A DNA stretch of 64,000 nucleotides from Nitrospira sp. bin75. GTDB taxonomy: Bacteria; Nitrospirota; Nitrospiria; Nitrospirales; UBA8639. Of this stretch, positions 1 through 32,332 are shown piece after piece. Below the pieces are notes generated by a model, which ran no database searches, had not been told where the DNA came from, and was given only the letters and a program-made list of their open reading frames with translations. The first letter of the stretch is position 1; every line of letters starts with the position of its first letter. Made by a program: the position numbers and the translations under genes. The stretch covers positions 1 to 64,000 of the forward strand of contig MPMZ01000002.1 in NCBI GenBank assembly GCA_002238765.1, read 5' to 3'.

Positions 1-23
1 GGGAATTATCCTTTTAACTTGAC
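1..23. repeat. Terminal inverted repeat of the IS1595-like element (passenger end)
   Basis: Exact reverse complement of 2371-2393. It starts GGGAATTATCC. The passenger gene's stop codon (TAA on the minus strand, 14-16) lies inside this repeat, so the coding sequence runs to within 13 bp of the element end. Confidence 0.95.
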
Positions 24-1285
24 GGCTGTTCTCTGAAATTTCCTTTGAGCAAGTCGTCAACGGTGAGCAGTTGTACATCAAGCCCTTCGCGTCGCCATTG
101 CGCCGCCCGCTCCTTTGCAGGCTTGGTATACCCATTCAGCGTGATATAAATTCCGCGTCCGTGTTGTTTGACCGGATAATAAAATCCTCGAAAACGGTCT
201 GTATCCCCTGACGGCTTATCCTCTTTTTTCACTTGAATCGGCGTCCCATCAAACGCCAAACGACCGTCAATTCCTCCATCAGCCACTTGAGCATGATTCG
301 TTACGCCTCCGATATATCGGACAGCGGCCTTCTCGAACTCAAATGGAGGAAGCGTTCTAAAATCTTTTCCTGATAGTGGTTTCATATCAAGCGGGACAAA
401 CAAAGAACAGTACTCAATTAAAGCGTTTCTCGTCACTTCACATGCCGTAATGCCCGCATCACAACCAACCCATTGACGATTCAATCTTTGAGCAGCCACA
501 ACCGTCGTCCCACACCCACAGAAAAAGTCAGCCACAATGTCATTAGGTTCTGTGACAGTCTCAATAATTCTGCTCAACAAGGCCAAAGGCTTCTTCGTCG
601 GCCACTCAACAGCCTCTTTGGCTTTTTGCTTTTTTCCTTTTCGTTTGACGGGGGTAATATCGAACCACCAATCGGCTTCGGACGTGCCTTTCTCAAGATC
701 AATCCAAACCTCATTCAAATCGTCTGGCCTTGCTTTTAACGCCGCAAATACTCCTGGGTTTGTCTCTTTCAGCCGTTGATACGTGATCTGCCCATTGTGG
801 TCAAAGTATGGTCGATACCGCTCAATGGTTGAGGCTGATAAGCGTGTTGTCGCAATTTTATTCGTTTTATAGTGCTTCCTGTTCTTGGCATACCAAAAAA
901 TGACATCATGTGTTTTTTTGTAATAACTTGTGTTTCGTCTGCCAGCTGGATCAATGTAGCACCAAATGATTTCGTTGATAAAATTTGTCTGGTCTTGCGC
1001 TGGATTCTTCACACCAAAAATCTTATCCAGTTCAACTTTGATGTAATGCGCCATTCTCCAATCAAGATGAACAAATAACGATCCTGTTGGTTTCAAGAGT
1101 CGGTGCATATGACGTAAGCGTTCGACCATAAATTCCACGTAGCCATACACACCGCCTCCCCAAATATCATAAAACTGTAACTCTTGAACCTTTTCTTTGA
1201 ACGCATTAGATCTCCATAACGACTGTGTACCGAAGGGGGGATCAATATAGATCAAATCAATCGACTCGTCGGGCATATCTGGCAT
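14..1285 (-). CDS. DNA methyltransferase fused to Mrr-like restriction endonuclease domain (IS passenger)
   Basis: The N-terminal half is a beta-type amino-methyltransferase: the catalytic DPPFG motif lies at about residues 16-20 and the SAM-binding FFCGCGTT motif at about 254-261. The last ~115 residues look like a PD-(D/E)XK nuclease of the Mrr type, with FEFEKAAVRYIGG, then GGIDG and IQVKKED. A single polypeptide could therefore modify and cut DNA. The listed ATG omits upstream in-frame sequence that reads NAIYQGDNLYF, a normal part of such enzymes; no ATG, GTG or TTG precedes it in frame. A second ATG at 1378-1380, directly after the transposase stop, opens a plausible N-terminus in another frame, so a frameshift near 1320 is suspected. 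The specificity is unknown. Confidence 0.8.
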   Translation of the reverse strand: MPDMPDESIDLIYIDPPFGTQSLWRSNAFKEKVQELQFYDIWGGGVYGYVEFMVERLRHMHRLLKPTGSLFVHLDWRMAHYIKVELDKIFGVKNPAQDQTNFINEIIWCYIDPAGRRNTSYYKKTHDVIFWYAKNRKHYKTNKIATTRLSASTIERYRPYFDHNGQITYQRLKETNPGVFAALKARPDDLNEVWIDLEKGTSEADWWFDITPVKRKGKKQKAKEAVEWPTKKPLALLSRIIETVTEPNDIVADFFCGCGTTVVAAQRLNRQWVGCDAGITACEVTRNALIEYCSLFVPLDMKPLSGKDFRTLPPFEFEKAAVRYIGGVTNHAQVADGGIDGRLAFDGTPIQVKKEDKPSGDTDRFRGFYYPVKQHGRGIYITLNGYTKPAKERAAQWRREGLDVQLLTVDDLLKGNFREQPSS

Positions 1286-1380
1286 AAAGTATAAGTTATC
1301 GCCTTGATAAATTGCGTTAGTTGAAATTGTGCCGACATGATAATTTCTGCTACCCTGGGAAACGCTCTTCTGCTCTTCAT

Positions 1381-2316
1381 TTAGACCTTCCCCGTCAATT
1401 CCTTATACGTGATGGGCTTCCCTGGCATCGCTCCGAACAGCGAGGCCATGCGATCCACGGTATCAACCTCACAATTCCCCTCATTGAGCCGGAAGGCGAA
1501 CTCATGCGCATATCGACCAAGGTGCTTGTAACTCACATGATGGAACGTCCCATGAATCCCTCGCTTCAAGACCGCCCACACGCTTTCCATACTGTTGGTA
1601 TGGACAAAGCCCTTCGCCCATTCCTTTTGTGAATGTCTGACCGAATCGTGATAGGACACAACCTGATTCAGGCTTCGATAGGCGCGGTGCTCATCCGTAC
1701 AGACCACACTCTCAGGCTCAACGTGACGGGCAATGATCGGGAACATGGCGTGTTTGTTGGCGTCGGGAACGGGTTGAATAACCACCTTTCCACCACGTTG
1801 ACGCATGCCAAGCAAGGGTTGTTTGCCGACTGGTCCGCGTCCACCTTTCAATTTCTTGGTTTCCTTTTTGTTCCCTTCCAAACCGCCGATGTAGGTTTCG
1901 TCAATCTCAACAATACCAGATAAGAGAATAGAGTCGGTATCACAGGCCAGACGAAGTCGGTGCATCATGTACCACGCCGTAGGTTGCTTCACCTTGAGTT
2001 CTTTGCCTAACTGAATCGAGGAAATACCCTTTCTGGCCGTGAGCATCAAATACGCCGCAAAGAGCCACTTGCGGGCATCCACCTTGTTGCGTTCAAGTGG
2101 AGTATTGGTGAAAACCGTAAAGTAGGCCCGACACATGCCGCACCAGTAGGTTCCCACCTTTTTCTGAGGGGTGATCTTGTCTGCCTTCTCACACTTGGTA
2201 CAGGCTGGGGAACCTTGCCAGCGAACCCGTTCAAAGTAGCGCACGGCACTGTCAATCGTGGGAAACATCTCAGTCAACTGGAACAGGCTTAACGTAGTGG
2301 CTTTGCGTTTTTTCAT
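1381..2316 (-). CDS. IS1595-family (ISXO2-like) transposase
   Basis: 311 residues, normal for the family. The N-terminus has a zinc ribbon (CTKCEKADK ... CGMCRAYF, about residues 38-62). The catalytic core includes EIDETYIGG, CTDEHRAY and HTNSMESVW followed by LKRGIHGTFHHVS, matching the DDE-type ISXO2 core. A clear AGGAG lies about 8 nt upstream of the ATG. The gene appears intact and would act on the inverted repeats at 1-23 and 2371-2393. The passenger frame begins immediately after its stop. Confidence 0.95.
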   Translation of the reverse strand: MKKRKATTLSLFQLTEMFPTIDSAVRYFERVRWQGSPACTKCEKADKITPQKKVGTYWCGMCRAYFTVFTNTPLERNKVDARKWLFAAYLMLTARKGISSIQLGKELKVKQPTAWYMMHRLRLACDTDSILLSGIVEIDETYIGGLEGNKKETKKLKGGRGPVGKQPLLGMRQRGGKVVIQPVPDANKHAMFPIIARHVEPESVVCTDEHRAYRSLNQVVSYHDSVRHSQKEWAKGFVHTNSMESVWAVLKRGIHGTFHHVSYKHLGRYAHEFAFRLNEGNCEVDTVDRMASLFGAMPGKPITYKELTGKV

Positions 2317-2346
2317 CTGCTAGACTCCTTTCGTGACCATGCTCGG

Positions 2347-2375
2347 AGTCTATCAGAAGTCTATCCCTTTGTCAA
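2347..2375 (-). promoter_or_regulatory. Transposase promoter overlapping the terminal repeat
   Basis: On the minus strand TTGACA (2370-2375), a 17-bp spacer and TAGACT (2347-2352) precede the transposase start. The -35 box overlaps the inner edge of the inverted repeat, so a transposase bound to the repeat would occlude its own promoter. GATAGACT is directly repeated (2347-2354 and 2358-2365). Confidence 0.65.
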
Positions 2376-2393
2376 GTTAAAAGGATAATTCCC
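2371..2393. repeat. Terminal inverted repeat of the IS1595-like element (transposase end)
   Basis: Perfect 23-bp reverse complement of 1-23. It marks the boundary with the chromosomal flank, 26 bp before the likely queA start. Confidence 0.95.
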
Positions 2394-2418
2394 CTCTTTT
2401 TTGTCGACGTGGGTACCT

Positions 2419-3441: not shown

Positions 3442-3588
3442 GTCGGGATTCGTTTCGACAGAATGCCAAGACTGTTTGCGCCTTAGTAAATGCACTGATG
3501 AGTAGAAAGGTTCTTTCTTGGGCTCAAAAATGTAACATGTTAATGTGCAGTTACAAGCACAGGGATTTGGAAGCCAAGAATTAGAACG

Positions 3589-4515
3589 ATGAAAAAGAGG
3601 AAACTTTTTGAGGAAAGAAAAGCGTTTTCCGCGGTCCTGACAAACTTCGTTAAAGGACTTGCCGGATACGTATCAGCCGAGGACGGTCAGTGGACCGTAA
3701 AGGGCTTCATTGACATTTATAGGAACGTTTACACTATCAGTTCTGACACCAAGATCGTCTCGAAAATCCTTGAAATCCATTTATTTCCGCAAATCCTAAA
3801 ATTTGCCCAAGACAACGGTTACACAATCGTTCTTGCAGAACACCAAAACTGGTATCCTGACATCACTTTCATCAAGCGAGATGATCAGAATGTTAAGTTT
3901 GCAGTAGACCTGAAAACTACTTACCGAGATCCGAACTTCCCGGACCACGTCAATGGCTTCACTATGGGAAGTCATTGAGCATATTTCAAGAATCGTATAT
4001 CAACGAAAAACATCCAGTTCCCCTATGCGGACTACTCTGGTCACTTCTGTTTGGGGATCATCTACAGCAGAGTAGATGTCAAAGATTTGGATGAAACCGA
4101 AATCATGCACGTTGCCGAGCTGGAAAGCAAAAGAAACAAAAAACCATCACGTCAATATTCTATGACCAACGTTGATAACCTTCGCTCAATTGCCTCAGTT
4201 GTTAGAGATTTCCAGTTCTTTGTATGTGAGAAATGGCGCTTGGCGAGCGATAAGCAGGGATCCGGCAACACGGCAAATATCGGCTCGATCACTTGCATCG
4301 AAGATGTCCTCGTTGGGAATGGCGTTTTCGCTAAATTGGGCGAGGAGTGGTTCGATGAATACTGGATGAACTACGGTGTCTCGACAATGATGAAGAAGGG
4401 CAAGGCCATTCCCATCAGATCAATAGGAGACTTCTTAGATTTCAAGGGTGGCGATAACAGCAAGATTGTAGCAGTAAAGACCAAGAGAAAGACAAAGAAT
4501 AAGGAGGAGCAATGA
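3589..4515 (+). pseudogene. EcoRV-like type II restriction endonuclease with an in-frame stop
   Basis: Reading through one TGA (3976-3978) gives about 308 residues that align along their length with EcoRV. Visible matches are the active-site equivalents E62 (KILEIH), D91 (NWYPDITF), D107 and K109 (AVDLKTTY), and the recognition-loop segment GSGNTANIGSI (EcoRV has GSGNTTNIGSI). The sequence resumes in the same frame after the stop (AYFKNRISTKNIQFPYADY), so this is a nonsense change at codon 130, not a frameshift. GATATC is the inferred target. The stop lies between the catalytic centre and the recognition loop and should inactivate the enzyme. The 3' end overlaps the methylase by ATGA. Confidence 0.9.
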
Positions 4516-5459
4516 CGAGAATAATTGTTCCTCCAATTAAAAGCCAGGGGATTAAGACCAAACTCGTTCCTTGGATTCAAGCCCTTGTTCCAGACGTTAG
4601 CGGAAAGTGGATTGAGCCTTTTTTGGGAACCGGGGTTGTTGCGTTCAACTCTGGGTTTCAGAAAGCACTTTTAAACGACACCAATCCCCACGTTATTCGT
4701 TTTTATCAATGCGTGAAAGATCGTGAAATCACGCCCCAACTGGTTCGAGAGTACTTAGAGAAAGAAGGGGAACAACTTAGGATGGCGCCTGAATGTGGAT
4801 ATGCCCACTTTCGGGCCATTAAAGATAGATTTAACGTTACTCATGATCCACTGGATTTTCTATTTCTTTCTCGTGCAGGTTTTAACGGAATGATGCGCTT
4901 CAATCGCGCTGGGGAGTGGAATATCCCCTTCTGCAAAAAGGCGGAACGTTTTTCCCGCAGCTACATCACGAAGATTGTGAATCAAGTACGTGATGTCGAC
5001 TGCCTCATCCAACCTTCTTGGATTTTCACTGTAGAAAATTTTGAAGCCACCATCGAAAAAGCAGAAAAGGACGACGTCATCTATTGTGATCCGCCTTACA
5101 TCGGAAGATACGTGGACTACTACAGTGGCTGGACAGAGAAATCCGAACGAAGGCTCTTCGACCTTCTGTCAGCTTCGCCGGCTCGGTTTATTCTCTCCAC
5201 GTGGCATCATAATGATTATCGTCACAACCCATATATAGATTCATTATGGAGTAAATTTAATATCGTCACCCGGGATCATTTCTATCACTCCGGCGGAAAG
5301 ATTGAAAACAGAAAATCGATTGTTGAAGCATTGGCGTTCAATTTTGAGGCGAATATTAAAAGACACAATCACGATGTATATCCGAAGCCTGAGCAATTGT
5401 TGCTTTGCGAAAACAGAGCGAAATATATCACGCAACAATTGAGTCGAGTTGACGTGTGA
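4512..5459 (+). CDS. EcoRV-type adenine-N6 DNA methyltransferase (D12/Dam class)
   Basis: A Dam-class enzyme predicted to methylate adenine in GATATC. At 315 residues it resembles M.EcoRV throughout: VPPIKSQGIKTKLVPWI near the start, EPFLGTGVVAFN (SAM binding, about 36-47), LDFLFLSRAGFNGM, CDPPYIGRYVDYY (catalytic DPPY from D193) and FILSTWHHNDYR. It overlaps the broken endonuclease by 4 bp and is intact, so the host probably retains solitary methylation after losing cutting activity. It is AT-richer than the flanking core genes. Confidence 0.95.
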   Translation: MTRIIVPPIKSQGIKTKLVPWIQALVPDVSGKWIEPFLGTGVVAFNSGFQKALLNDTNPHVIRFYQCVKDREITPQLVREYLEKEGEQLRMAPECGYAHFRAIKDRFNVTHDPLDFLFLSRAGFNGMMRFNRAGEWNIPFCKKAERFSRSYITKIVNQVRDVDCLIQPSWIFTVENFEATIEKAEKDDVIYCDPPYIGRYVDYYSGWTEKSERRLFDLLSASPARFILSTWHHNDYRHNPYIDSLWSKFNIVTRDHFYHSGGKIENRKSIVEALAFNFEANIKRHNHDVYPKPEQLLLCENRAKYITQQLSRVDV

Positions 5460-5493
5460 TGTGCAGTATACTGGAGGAGGGGCAAAAGGATTT

Positions 5494-5748
5494 TTGAAGA
5501 ACAAAACCAAATATACGGATGAGCCTCTTGGCCGATTGAGCGTGATTGAAGATTTTCTCCCACCGCCGGACGAGTTGGTGCTTCGCCGGGACCAAGTCAA
5601 GGTCACGATGTCTTTGAGCAAATCGAGTGTGGATTTCTTTAAAAAAGAGGCCGGGAAACGCCGGACTTCGTATCAGGCGATGATCCGCAGGCTTATCGAC
5701 CTGTACGCTGCCCAATATGAAAAGCGCCTCAAAAGGCGCTCTCCCTGA
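5494..5748 (+). CDS. BrnA/CopG-like ribbon-helix-helix antitoxin
   Basis: About 84 residues from the TTG at 5494 (KNKTKYTDEPLGRL...), the start expected for this family; an upstream TTG at 5449 would overlap the methylase. The segment EDFLPPPDELVLRRD followed by QVKVTMSLSKSSVDFFKK and SYQAMIRRLIDLYA is typical of BrnA/CopG antitoxins that bind DNA through a C-terminal ribbon-helix-helix. No toxin gene adjoins it: the gene upstream is the methylase. It is thus an orphan antitoxin or a regulator left from a lost module. Confidence 0.75.
   Translation: MKNKTKYTDEPLGRLSVIEDFLPPPDELVLRRDQVKVTMSLSKSSVDFFKKEAGKRRTSYQAMIRRLIDLYAAQYEKRLKRRSP
5723..5740 (-). terminator. Hairpin terminator for the minus-strand gene at 5848
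   Basis: AGCGCC and GGCGCT form a 6-bp stem around a 6-nt loop. On the minus strand it is followed by TTTT, so it fits the end of the transcript coming from 6750. It overlaps the 3' end of the antitoxin gene. Confidence 0.45.
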
Positions 5749-5847
5749 CGATTCTCTGAACCACAACACGCAGGCTTAAAGGGAATCATCTATCCTGATC
5801 AAACGCTTGCATCGGTTCATGCTTTCAGCTTCGGATGGTTTTCTACA

Positions 5848-6750
5848 TCATTCGTTTGGGTCGGTTTCAACGGGTTCACCTATCATCTCACGGTATCGTT
5901 TGACGCACGGCCAGATCTTCCGATACCCAAGCCACCTCGCTTCTTTATTATTTTTGGCACATCGTTCTACCAAGCCGGTGTAGCGGTCTTGGTTTAACAT
6001 AGAGGCCACGAACCTGGAATAGCCGGTGATGGTCTCCTTCACGCATAGCGTATCATCAACAGCCGTTTTTTCATTGATGAATTTGAGCAACAAATCGTTA
6101 TAAGTCCGAGCATCGACCAATTCTTTGTATTTATCCCAAGAATCACTTCGGCTTGGATTAAGAAGGATTCCTTGTTTTACTAATCGTCGTTCGCCTGCAT
6201 AGCTTTCCAGGCGCGTTTCCCCAATGTTCCATGATATCCCTGCCTCTTTGATCCATTCGAGGCTATGTCTGATTGTCCAAGTACAGGCCTTCACAATATC
6301 GTCCAGAGTTTCCAAACATTCGACGACTTCTACCGGATCATCCGATTGCCAAATAGCCTTGCAATGAGCGGCTCGTTTCTTGTGACCTTGGCCTGCCTTG
6401 ACGTGGGCGATAGCTTCATCAAAGGCAGCCGCTGCACGAGCGGCGCGTGACTTGGCCCAGGCATCCATTTCTTTTTGGGTTTTGGCCTCTTCAGATCGGG
6501 CATTGACTTCGTTGATGGCGGCTTTATATACAGAGAGCGCTTCAAGCGTCGCTCGGTGTACAACCAAGGCTTCATCGATGACTCTGGACAAGGTCTCCGC
6601 AGACGCGACTGCCGACACTCTTCCCTGTGTAGCTTTGGCTTTGTCGAGTTCGGTTATGGCCTCGGGCAACGTCTCGGCAAACGAGGCCATCGGCATGCTT
6701 CCCAGCAGAACGATAACGACAAAGAAGCTCTTGAACAAAATGGTCTTCAT
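5848..6750 (-). CDS. Secreted protein of unknown function
   Basis: Not recognised. The 300-residue product begins with a clear signal peptide (MKTILFKSFFVVIVLLGS ... SFAETLP), so it is probably periplasmic or exported. Residues ~30-120 are rich in Ala, Glu and Lys and look helical; the C-terminal half has four Cys (CKAIW, CLETL, CTWTI, then CVKE and CAKN further on). AGGAG lies about 11 nt upstream of the ATG. It sits alone, divergent from the 410-residue gene at 6927, within the accessory block. Confidence 0.6.
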   Translation of the reverse strand: MKTILFKSFFVVIVLLGSMPMASFAETLPEAITELDKAKATQGRVSAVASAETLSRVIDEALVVHRATLEALSVYKAAINEVNARSEEAKTQKEMDAWAKSRAARAAAAFDEAIAHVKAGQGHKKRAAHCKAIWQSDDPVEVVECLETLDDIVKACTWTIRHSLEWIKEAGISWNIGETRLESYAGERRLVKQGILLNPSRSDSWDKYKELVDARTYNDLLLKFINEKTAVDDTLCVKETITGYSRFVASMLNQDRYTGLVERCAKNNKEARWLGYRKIWPCVKRYREMIGEPVETDPNE

Positions 6751-6926
6751 GGTTTTATTGCTCCTGGTGTGTGTGATGGTTCAGTTGCTTGTTCGACACA
6801 AACGTAGAAAAAGACAGGAAGAGCCGTCAAAGGCTCTCATGTTTTGCGTGGGCAAACACATATATAATTCCCTTACGATAGAGGGAAAAGGGCTATATTA
6901 TGCTTTAATTTTGGGAAGGAGAGTCT

Positions 6927-8159
6927 ATGGCTGATGATATCTTTAGCGAAACTGACGAATTCATGGAAGAAGTTGTGAACGATCCCGAAAGCCAGCGCGA
7001 AATGCAGCGTGAAATAGAAGAATGGGAGACGCAACGCCTCGATATTATATCGAGGCCTCAATCCGGGCCTATGGCACCAACCGACGGGGAAATCCTGAAC
7101 CTCATAGGCAAAGGATTCGATCTCTTCTGCGAGGTCCCGTTTGGCAATCACTACGATCATCTTATCGAGCGACTTTCTTTTACGCATAGTGAGCTTGAGG
7201 TTGACGATGAACGTAAGTTGAAAACAGCATGGACGACGTTCCTGAACGAAGCTGACACTACATTCGACGAATTAATCCTGAGTGAGGGCGTGGCTGGATG
7301 GTACGAGGAACGTGAGATGTACGCTCATGCCATTGCTGTCTATGAACATTTATATACTCTTGTTCGTCGCGGTGAGCTTGGGTGTGATCATTTCGATCAG
7401 AGGTTTGATTCGAGCGAGAGAAGTTTGCTCGAAATCTGGCTGGGCAGTCTCGTTTCTCTCTACTACTATCGCCTAAAACAACCTGAGCGAGCGAGACATT
7501 TTTGCGAACTTATCGAAGATTATTACAATGATGACTATGTATCTCTCGTGGGGTCTGCGGAAGCCATCTCCTGGAGAGATGAACTGAGTCGTGCCGCTAT
7601 TAACCCAAGATTTCAAACAGACTTGGATGCGGCGCAGAACAGACTGAGACATGAATACGGCTCATTATTTGACGATCTCCATAATAGAACTAAGAAGTTT
7701 GTCGTAGGGGCGGAGTTGTGGAGCGACAAGCATTGGATAAAAATCAATCCTTGGTCAGTTCCTCTACGCTGGGCGCTGTCGATAGAGTCGGAATTTCATT
7801 ATCAGGTATTTCAGCCCAACCGGCATCAGATCGAAAAATTGCTTGGTGACGATGCCCCACGTCGTAACCAGATATGTGGTTTAGGGCAAATTATCACAGT
7901 GTTTGAAAAAGCAGGACCCAACGTTGGTCTAAGCTGCATATTAGCCCCTAAGCGCAATAGAGAATTTCTTACTTCTCGGGATACGCTTGCAAGACTGAAG
8001 GTTGTACGTAACGATCGCAATCGAGTCGCCCATGCCAGCGAAAGGAACGCCTATACCTTGGCGGAGAGCCTTGATTTTGTCGAGGAAATTCGAAAGACCA
8101 AATGGGTGTTCAAATTTATGGACGCGTTGCAGCCGAAAAATCGCTCTACTCGCAACTGA
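6927..8159 (+). CDS. HEPN-like protein of unknown function
   Basis: 410 residues preceded by a good Shine-Dalgarno (GGAAGGAGAG). The N-terminus is very acidic (ETDEFMEEVVNDPESQ). The middle resembles a helical TPR-like region around ALSVYKA-type helices (AIAVYEHLYTLVRRGEL). The C-terminus has VRNDRNRVAHAS at about residue 362, which fits the R-x4-6-H signature of HEPN nucleases. The position between an R-M system and a toxin-antitoxin pair suggests a defence role, but that is inference only. Confidence 0.6.
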   Translation: MADDIFSETDEFMEEVVNDPESQREMQREIEEWETQRLDIISRPQSGPMAPTDGEILNLIGKGFDLFCEVPFGNHYDHLIERLSFTHSELEVDDERKLKTAWTTFLNEADTTFDELILSEGVAGWYEEREMYAHAIAVYEHLYTLVRRGELGCDHFDQRFDSSERSLLEIWLGSLVSLYYYRLKQPERARHFCELIEDYYNDDYVSLVGSAEAISWRDELSRAAINPRFQTDLDAAQNRLRHEYGSLFDDLHNRTKKFVVGAELWSDKHWIKINPWSVPLRWALSIESEFHYQVFQPNRHQIEKLLGDDAPRRNQICGLGQIITVFEKAGPNVGLSCILAPKRNREFLTSRDTLARLKVVRNDRNRVAHASERNAYTLAESLDFVEEIRKTKWVFKFMDALQPKNRSTRN

Positions 8160-31282: not shown

Positions 31283-32332
31283 TGTTCAGTCATTCGTTGA
31301 CAAGATTCGTTGATCTGTTTCGGGGTTTGTCCGTCCAGCGCCTGATGCGGGCGCACCTCATTGTAGTAGAGGAGATATTGCTCCAATTCGTCCCGAAATT
31401 CCTCCAGGGACGCAAACGTGGTGCCGTCGATCAGGTCGTCGTTCAGGGTCCGCCAGAACCGTTCCACCTTGCCGTCGGTCTGTGGCCGATACGGCCGGGT
31501 ATACCGATGCTTGATGCCCAACTCCAGCAGCATCCGTTCAAACGGGTGGGTCGCCGGCTGGGTGGGAGCCGCGAACTCCGAGACATTGTCCGTTAAGACC
31601 TCGGCAAACTGGAGTTGATACCGCTGGTGGAGCAGATTGAAGCTCTTGAGGGCACTGAACATCACCGTCAGACTCTTCAGATCGGGCACCACCTCCGCCC
31701 GGCCAGGCGGGTACAGGCATCAAGCACACACACCAGATAATACCGGGTGGGATCACTCGCCAGCAGATCCTTACTCAAGTCATGGCAGTCCAGATGCCCC
31801 AATTCCCCGGCTTTCTGCTTCACAATGCGGCGTTTCTCCTCTCGCAGCTTCGGCGTTAAGCGGTTCAGCCCATGTCGGTACGTGATCCGATAGACCGTAC
31901 TCGGGGACGGCGTCAGGTGCTTCAGTTTGGGGGCCAGCAGCTGGCAAATCTCATAGCGATTGACGCCCAACCGCCGGTGCTGCAAGACCTGCTGCTCAAG
32001 ATCCCCGTAGACCCGCCGACTTTTCCACTTCGGGCCGCGCGTTTGGGGGACCAGCGCCTGGTCGGCCTCACTCTGGCGGAACCGGTGATAATACTTGAAG
32101 AAGGTCTGCCGGTGGGTCTGATGAAACCGGTAGAAATCGGCCACAAACCGGAATTTGGGGTGGCGTTTCTGTTTGACCAACTCGTACTCCTGGATCAGGA
32201 ATTTCCATTTCCGGACATAATTGCGGTAGAGGGTCTTGTCTTGGGTCTTGGGTCTTGGGTCTTGGGTCGCATGGCTTCGCCTCCAGGTGATAGGATGAGT
32301 CACCCTACATTCTGTCAACGAATTAGTGAACA
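31283..32332 (-). mobile_element. IS481-like element (inactive)
   Basis: TGTTCAGTCATTCGTTGACA (31283-31302) and its imperfect complement at 32313-32332 (ends in GTGAACA) match at about 17 of 20 positions and frame the broken transposase. No clear target-site duplication was found, so the exact ends are tentative. Confidence 0.6.
32231..32268. repeat. Heptamer tandem repeat (GGGTCTT)
   Basis: About five units of GGGTCTT, one interrupted by a GTCTT half-unit, inside the N-terminal coding region of the IS481-like transposase. It is prone to slippage and makes the start of that gene uncertain. Confidence 0.7.

Follow-up and report, generated by a model that had tools for sequence, protein, structure and literature searches.

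R-M genes move frequently between genomes, and the vehicle of that movement is usually unclear. In outline, it is known that IS elements can carry passenger genes, and methyltransferases are among these: passengers and 8-bp duplications have been described for IS1595 elements (PMC5704250), tIS with methyltransferase passengers have been reported in another IS family (PMC11891212), and restriction-modification (R-M) systems moving with IS are also on record (PMC3031569).

Here, we analyzed a 64,000-nucleotide stretch of DNA (the window), of which positions 1 to 2393 make up a complete IS1595-family transposon, with a transposase and a passenger gene between perfect inverted repeats of 23 bp (Table 1). 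A preliminary description, made from the sequence alone, had already claimed such repeats around a transposase and a methyltransferase-Mrr gene, with the passenger stop codon inside the terminal repeat, and we found the same repeats, matching domains, and the stop codon within the left repeat. In a profile search, the transposase frame matched DDE_Tnp_IS1595 (PF12762, E 5e-43) and the "IS1595 family transposase" model NF033547 (193.7 bits, cut-off 75); its N-terminal zinc ribbon (PF12760) scored 24.2 bits, just under the cut-off of 25.4. The passenger lies downstream of the transposase and reads the same way. Most of the elements compared have a TTGACA box with a 17-bp spacer, recognized by consensus match only, at the inward-facing end of the transposase-side repeat, and related elements share this promoter-like arrangement. 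Transposase and passenger would form one operon, probably transcribed from a promoter with its -35 box in the transposase-side terminal repeat.

Table 1. Features of the window (positions in window coordinates) and IS1595 elements with methyltransferase passengers in the genus (own, same genome as the window)
Feature	Position	Strand	Remarks
Terminal inverted repeat, passenger end	1..23	.	GGGAATTATCCTTTTAACTTGAC; 23/23 complementary to 2371-2393
Passenger frame, beta-class DNA methyltransferase + Mrr-type nuclease (predicted)	14..1378	-	open from TAA before 1400 to TAA 16-14
Mrr_cat nuclease domain	47..349	-	residues 344-444; putative catalytic residues DGGIDG...QVK; alignment
N6_N4_Mtase domain	431..1261	-	residues 40-316; motif IV DPPF, later motif I DFFCGCGTT (beta order); alignment
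Octamer-repeat remnant	1364..1377	-	one AAGAGCAG + partial AAGAGC
Natural passenger start, ATG	1378..1380	-	right after transposase TAA; out of frame; opens 42-aa frame only
IS1595-family DDE transposase, 311 aa	1381..2316	-	PF12762, NF033547
Promoter-like TTGACA-17-TAGACT	2347..2375	-	-35 box in inner end of transposase-side repeat; consensus match only
Terminal inverted repeat, transposase end	2371..2393	.	23/23 complementary to 1-23
8-bp target duplication, right copy	2394..2401	.	CTCTTTTT; left copy is final 8 bases of contig C91
EcoRV-like restriction endonuclease gene	3589..4515	+	PF09233, E 5.6e-50; in-frame TGA at 3976-3978
D12-class adenine methyltransferase	4512..5459	+	intact; after EcoRV-like gene
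7-bp tandem repeat GTCTTGG	32238..32268		perfect, 4.4 copies; near 5' end of frameshifted integrase-type transposase remnant
Own C57			window element; methyltransferase-Mrr
Own C86			2487 bp, 26-bp repeats; methyltransferase-Mrr frame, ATGA overlap with transposase; no exact duplication
Own C97			HsdR_N/HsdM frame + HsdS frame
G008:C156			methyltransferase-HNH; duplication TTTACAAA
G008:C22			methyltransferase-HNH; duplication CTTACAAA
G009 (L192)			806-aa IIG-like; duplication ATTCAATT
G002			C5 methyltransferase + 246-aa protein; duplication CACTCGAC
G006:C73			methyltransferase + 140-aa protein; repeats not found

Base 1 of the window is base 1 of contig C57, and because this contig starts at the element, no left flank is visible. 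The flank was recovered by synteny: the queA neighborhood is uninterrupted in congeners, i.e., the empty site is kept, and contig C91 of the same genome, found with the upstream side of one congener's queA locus, is the counterpart of the upstream neighbor of queA in the congeners. The preliminary description had made its case depend on a target duplication in the left flank; C91 ends in ...GGCCTCTTTTT, and its final 8 bases are those that follow the element in the window. A second insertion was found on contig C14, which breaks off within the element on its transposase side, has 127 bases in common with it (what looks like one assembly word), and carries the flank CATTTTTG. Its other side, again located by synteny, is contig C80, which starts with CATTTTTG and completes a perfect 8-bp duplication. 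The 23 bp of the passenger-end repeat also occur on C14 and in G012. An assembly artifact at the contig end was set aside, as the flanks match congeners and carry duplications. With two insertions that both have clean 8-bp duplications, the unit has therefore moved; it transposes as a whole, its 8-bp targets are T-rich, and its own genome has two copies. The further copies with the same ends and passenger envisaged in the preliminary description are represented by this second insertion as far as the ends go, and we infer that the passenger is present there from the assembly structure, the interior being collapsed with no internal branches seen. That the locus is a transposon with a passenger gene is well supported.

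The same genome also harbors transposase-less relatives of 945 bp, which keep only the last ~22 transposase codons, together with other cargo. Two of them are complete (L007 1451-2395 and L009 1451-2395), with repeats one base different and 8-bp duplications TTCAATTT and TATTTTTG; there are at least six copies, at least four of them at contig ends (L004, L005, L006, L008). These derivatives are the closest relatives of the window element by end sequence, and they lack its passenger. They bear on the idea that the passenger regulates transposition: by methylating the ends or the promoter it would limit or time movement, and the nuclease domain would process DNA or be inactive. Dam methylation limits or times IS10 and IS50 transposition, and a passenger in the transposase operon, with the promoter in the terminal repeat, would be well placed for such a role. 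However, the 945-bp copies moved without the passenger in cis, and the passengers of related elements belong to unrelated methyltransferase classes, for which different target sites are expected; we regard this explanation as very improbable.

The passenger frame matched N6_N4_Mtase above the curated cut-off (E 2e-44) and, with a modest score, Mrr_cat (26.4 bits, cut-off 21). The methyltransferase part resembled CcrM, M.BceJIV, MboIIA, and RsrI both by sequence and by predicted fold (model mean pLDDT 72); both domains were thus recognized at the sequence level, and the fold match concerns the methyltransferase only. The product would probably consist of an N-terminal beta-class adenine/cytosine-N methyltransferase and a C-terminal Mrr-type (PD-(D/E)xK) nuclease, with the predicted catalytic residues of both domains on one chain. 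In congeneric elements, methyltransferases are fused to an HNH domain instead, and fusion to two unrelated nuclease folds points to restriction as the common purpose. Judged from the domains, the conserved motifs, and this alternative fusion, the passenger is likely a single-chain R-M enzyme; no Res helicase-nuclease gene, as in Type III R-M, was found in the element or the adjoining 6 kb. The methyltransferase-Mrr architecture also occurs, at ~32 to 34% identity, in MAGs of Acidobacteria, Verrucomicrobia, and Planctomycetes, where, in the DNA covered, it is not beside an IS1595 transposase. Among 80 relatives of the methyltransferase from named genomes, one adjoins an IS1595 transposase (L079, from an alphaproteobacterium; frameshifted), and one more (L100) has an adjoining transposase fragment.

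The EcoRV-like gene and the D12-class gene (Table 1) are probably a half-dead second R-M system, ~1.2 kb from the insertion. A perfect tandem repeat of a 7-bp unit lies elsewhere in the window, near the 5' end of a transposase remnant.

The preliminary description had proposed that a self-contained R-M gene could act as an addiction module; in such a module, residual nuclease would kill the cell once the element is lost. Type II systems can do so (PMC3031569), and the cargo of other IS1595 elements includes PIN-domain genes of toxin-antitoxin type. Yet addiction is less likely because the enzyme would be single-chain: methyltransferase and nuclease would dilute together, with no separately unstable antitoxin. 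Type I systems that were examined lacked post-segregational killing (PMC3874152), and the window copy, which appears to be in an off reading frame, seems unexpressed. We therefore consider addiction quite unlikely.

The first in-frame ATG, GTG, or TTG of the passenger is at 1285, beyond the conserved N-terminal segment, which corrects the preliminary description. A start at this ATG was set aside, as the protein would then lack its first strand along with D27 and L29, which are nearly invariant. At the junction with the transposase, the element on G008:C22 reads ATG(AAGAGCAG)6 AAGAGC, followed by a 100-N gap, six more units, and then TCCCAGGGTA as in the window. This amounts to at least 13 octamer units, the exact copy number being hidden by the 100-N gap, versus one and a partial unit in the window. 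The number of units sets the frame, with the ATG in frame only at n = 0, 3, 6, or 9 (multiples of three). G008:C22 has the sole other octamer array found; viral contigs and a further 295 genomes of the phylum showed no such pattern. In G008:C156, the passenger ATG overlaps the transposase stop. This comparison suggests that the window copy has, or once had, a phase switch, which is off in the consensus sequence. Its repeats are too few for frequent slippage, however, and it may simply be broken; the passenger might also begin at a different codon. A -1 ribosomal frameshift from the transposase into the passenger, while possible, was set aside.

IS1595 transposases were present in 12 of the 14 genomes of the genus, and a methyltransferase gene followed 8 of the ~19 transposases in these genomes. 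The passengers fall into several unrelated architectures (methyltransferase-Mrr, methyltransferase-HNH, HsdR_N/HsdM plus HsdS, IIG-like, and C5), most of them bounded by repeats and duplications; the transposase of the C86 element is only 33% identical to that of the window element. By ORF calls and Pfam, none of ~38 IS1595 transposases sampled elsewhere in the phylum had a methyltransferase passenger (Fisher p 5e-5), the counts being approximate, with ORFs scored on one strand only and roughly a dozen of the elements from outside the genus being short IS without cargo. No match to the element was found in plasmid DNA; the plasmid methyltransferase homologues examined (Acetobacter, Megaera) were not beside IS1595, and seven annotated plasmid records had PIN, AAA ATPase, regulator, and other genes next to IS1595 and no methyltransferases. 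Related elements do not always lack a passenger, since C86, the congeners, and one alphaproteobacterium carry comparable ones. The earlier view that the gene is not a chance capture is supported by both target duplications, the second insertion, the apparent transposase-passenger operon, and this recurrence in diverged IS1595 elements.

An ordinary tIS with neutral cargo would have taken up whatever lay downstream, methyltransferases being common in these genomes, and its passenger would be dead or dying. Congeneric elements also carry P63C, KilA-N, glycosyltransferase, and Cas2-like genes, and across the genus and phylum the cargo extends to PIN and other genes; the window passenger is out of frame, and there are many derivatives that lack the transposase and carry other cargo. 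Such a history would, however, sit poorly with the excess of methyltransferase neighbors in the genus, with the long intact frames and conserved catalytic residues, and with the tight coupling to the transposase (ATGA, TAATG), and we hold it to be unlikely.

Several other observations were made on these elements. One IS1595 subgroup (L150 rc 3744-7104, L149 rc 3495-6963, L188 39-3005, L189 1955-4795) uses (C/T)TTACAAA, inside a repeated CCCCTTACAAAGGGG palindrome, as its insertion site, so that its target seems to be a REP-like repeat in these genomes. A short basic ORF of 54 to 56 aa (GRPV...SPE.IA.A) lies between the passenger and the right end in L150 (rc 6901-7068), L149 (rc 6768-6932), and L079 (2834-3004). 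The IS1595 elements of L231, L237, and L273 (a Roseomonas plasmid) have, 3' of the transposase, a two-gene operon for a ~250-aa protein and a PIN-domain protein, a toxin-antitoxin-like cargo.

Taken together, we consider it probable that the element is an IS1595 tIS in which transposase and a single-chain R-M passenger form one operon, with a repeat-switched start and a role in host defense or element persistence. Translation of the passenger would begin at the start codon directly after the transposase stop, and gain or loss of 8-bp units close behind that codon would bring the gene into or out of frame; the window copy is probably off. The benefit would most likely lie in defending the host or in helping the element to persist there. 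More tentatively, and with some doubt, the IS1595 transposons of this genus could be interchangeable R-M carriers that acquire, swap, and spread unrelated methyltransferase-nuclease genes, some of them repeat-switched. If so, the host could receive a new and switchable methylation pattern with every transposition. The R-M vehicle would here be a unit of 2.4 to 3.6 kb whose ends are defined, which makes target duplications, and whose operon includes the transposase; within one genus it comes with at least five passenger architectures. This offers a tractable system for asking whether defense genes pay for the upkeep of a transposon and whether the methylation state of a cell can be reset by a transposon.

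Among known enzymes, Type IIG/IIC proteins resemble the window passenger in having nuclease and methyltransferase on one polypeptide. The classical Type IIG order is nuclease, gamma-class methyltransferase, and specificity domain. The window passenger, in contrast, has a beta-class methyltransferase first and the Mrr domain last, and departs from the IIG order; the G009 element is closer to IIG. With phase-variable R-M systems, e.g., type III mod genes, the element has in common a 5' repeat tract, of a unit that is not a multiple of three, in a beta-class methyltransferase gene, whereas here the unit is 8 bp, the gene is on a transposon, and variation is proposed from sequence. With the IS1595 tIS MTnSag1/tISSag10, tISCpe8, and ISNha5, it shares a DDE transposase, inverted repeats of ~25 bp, the 8-bp duplication, and an internal passenger (PMC5704250, PMC11891212). 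The published IS1595 tIS compared carry lincomycin resistance or regulators, while here R-M-like passengers of many architectures occur in one genus; Siguier 2009, on the IS1595 family, may already list methyltransferase passengers. PaeR7I (Takahashi et al. 2011, PMC3031569) likewise exemplifies R-M genes moving with IS, but its genes were co-opted by host IS copies, whereas the window gene is built into an IS between its own ends. The present case brings IS1595 passengers, methyltransferase cargo, and R-M movement together in one small operon-like element, with unrelated R-M passengers occurring repeatedly in one genus.
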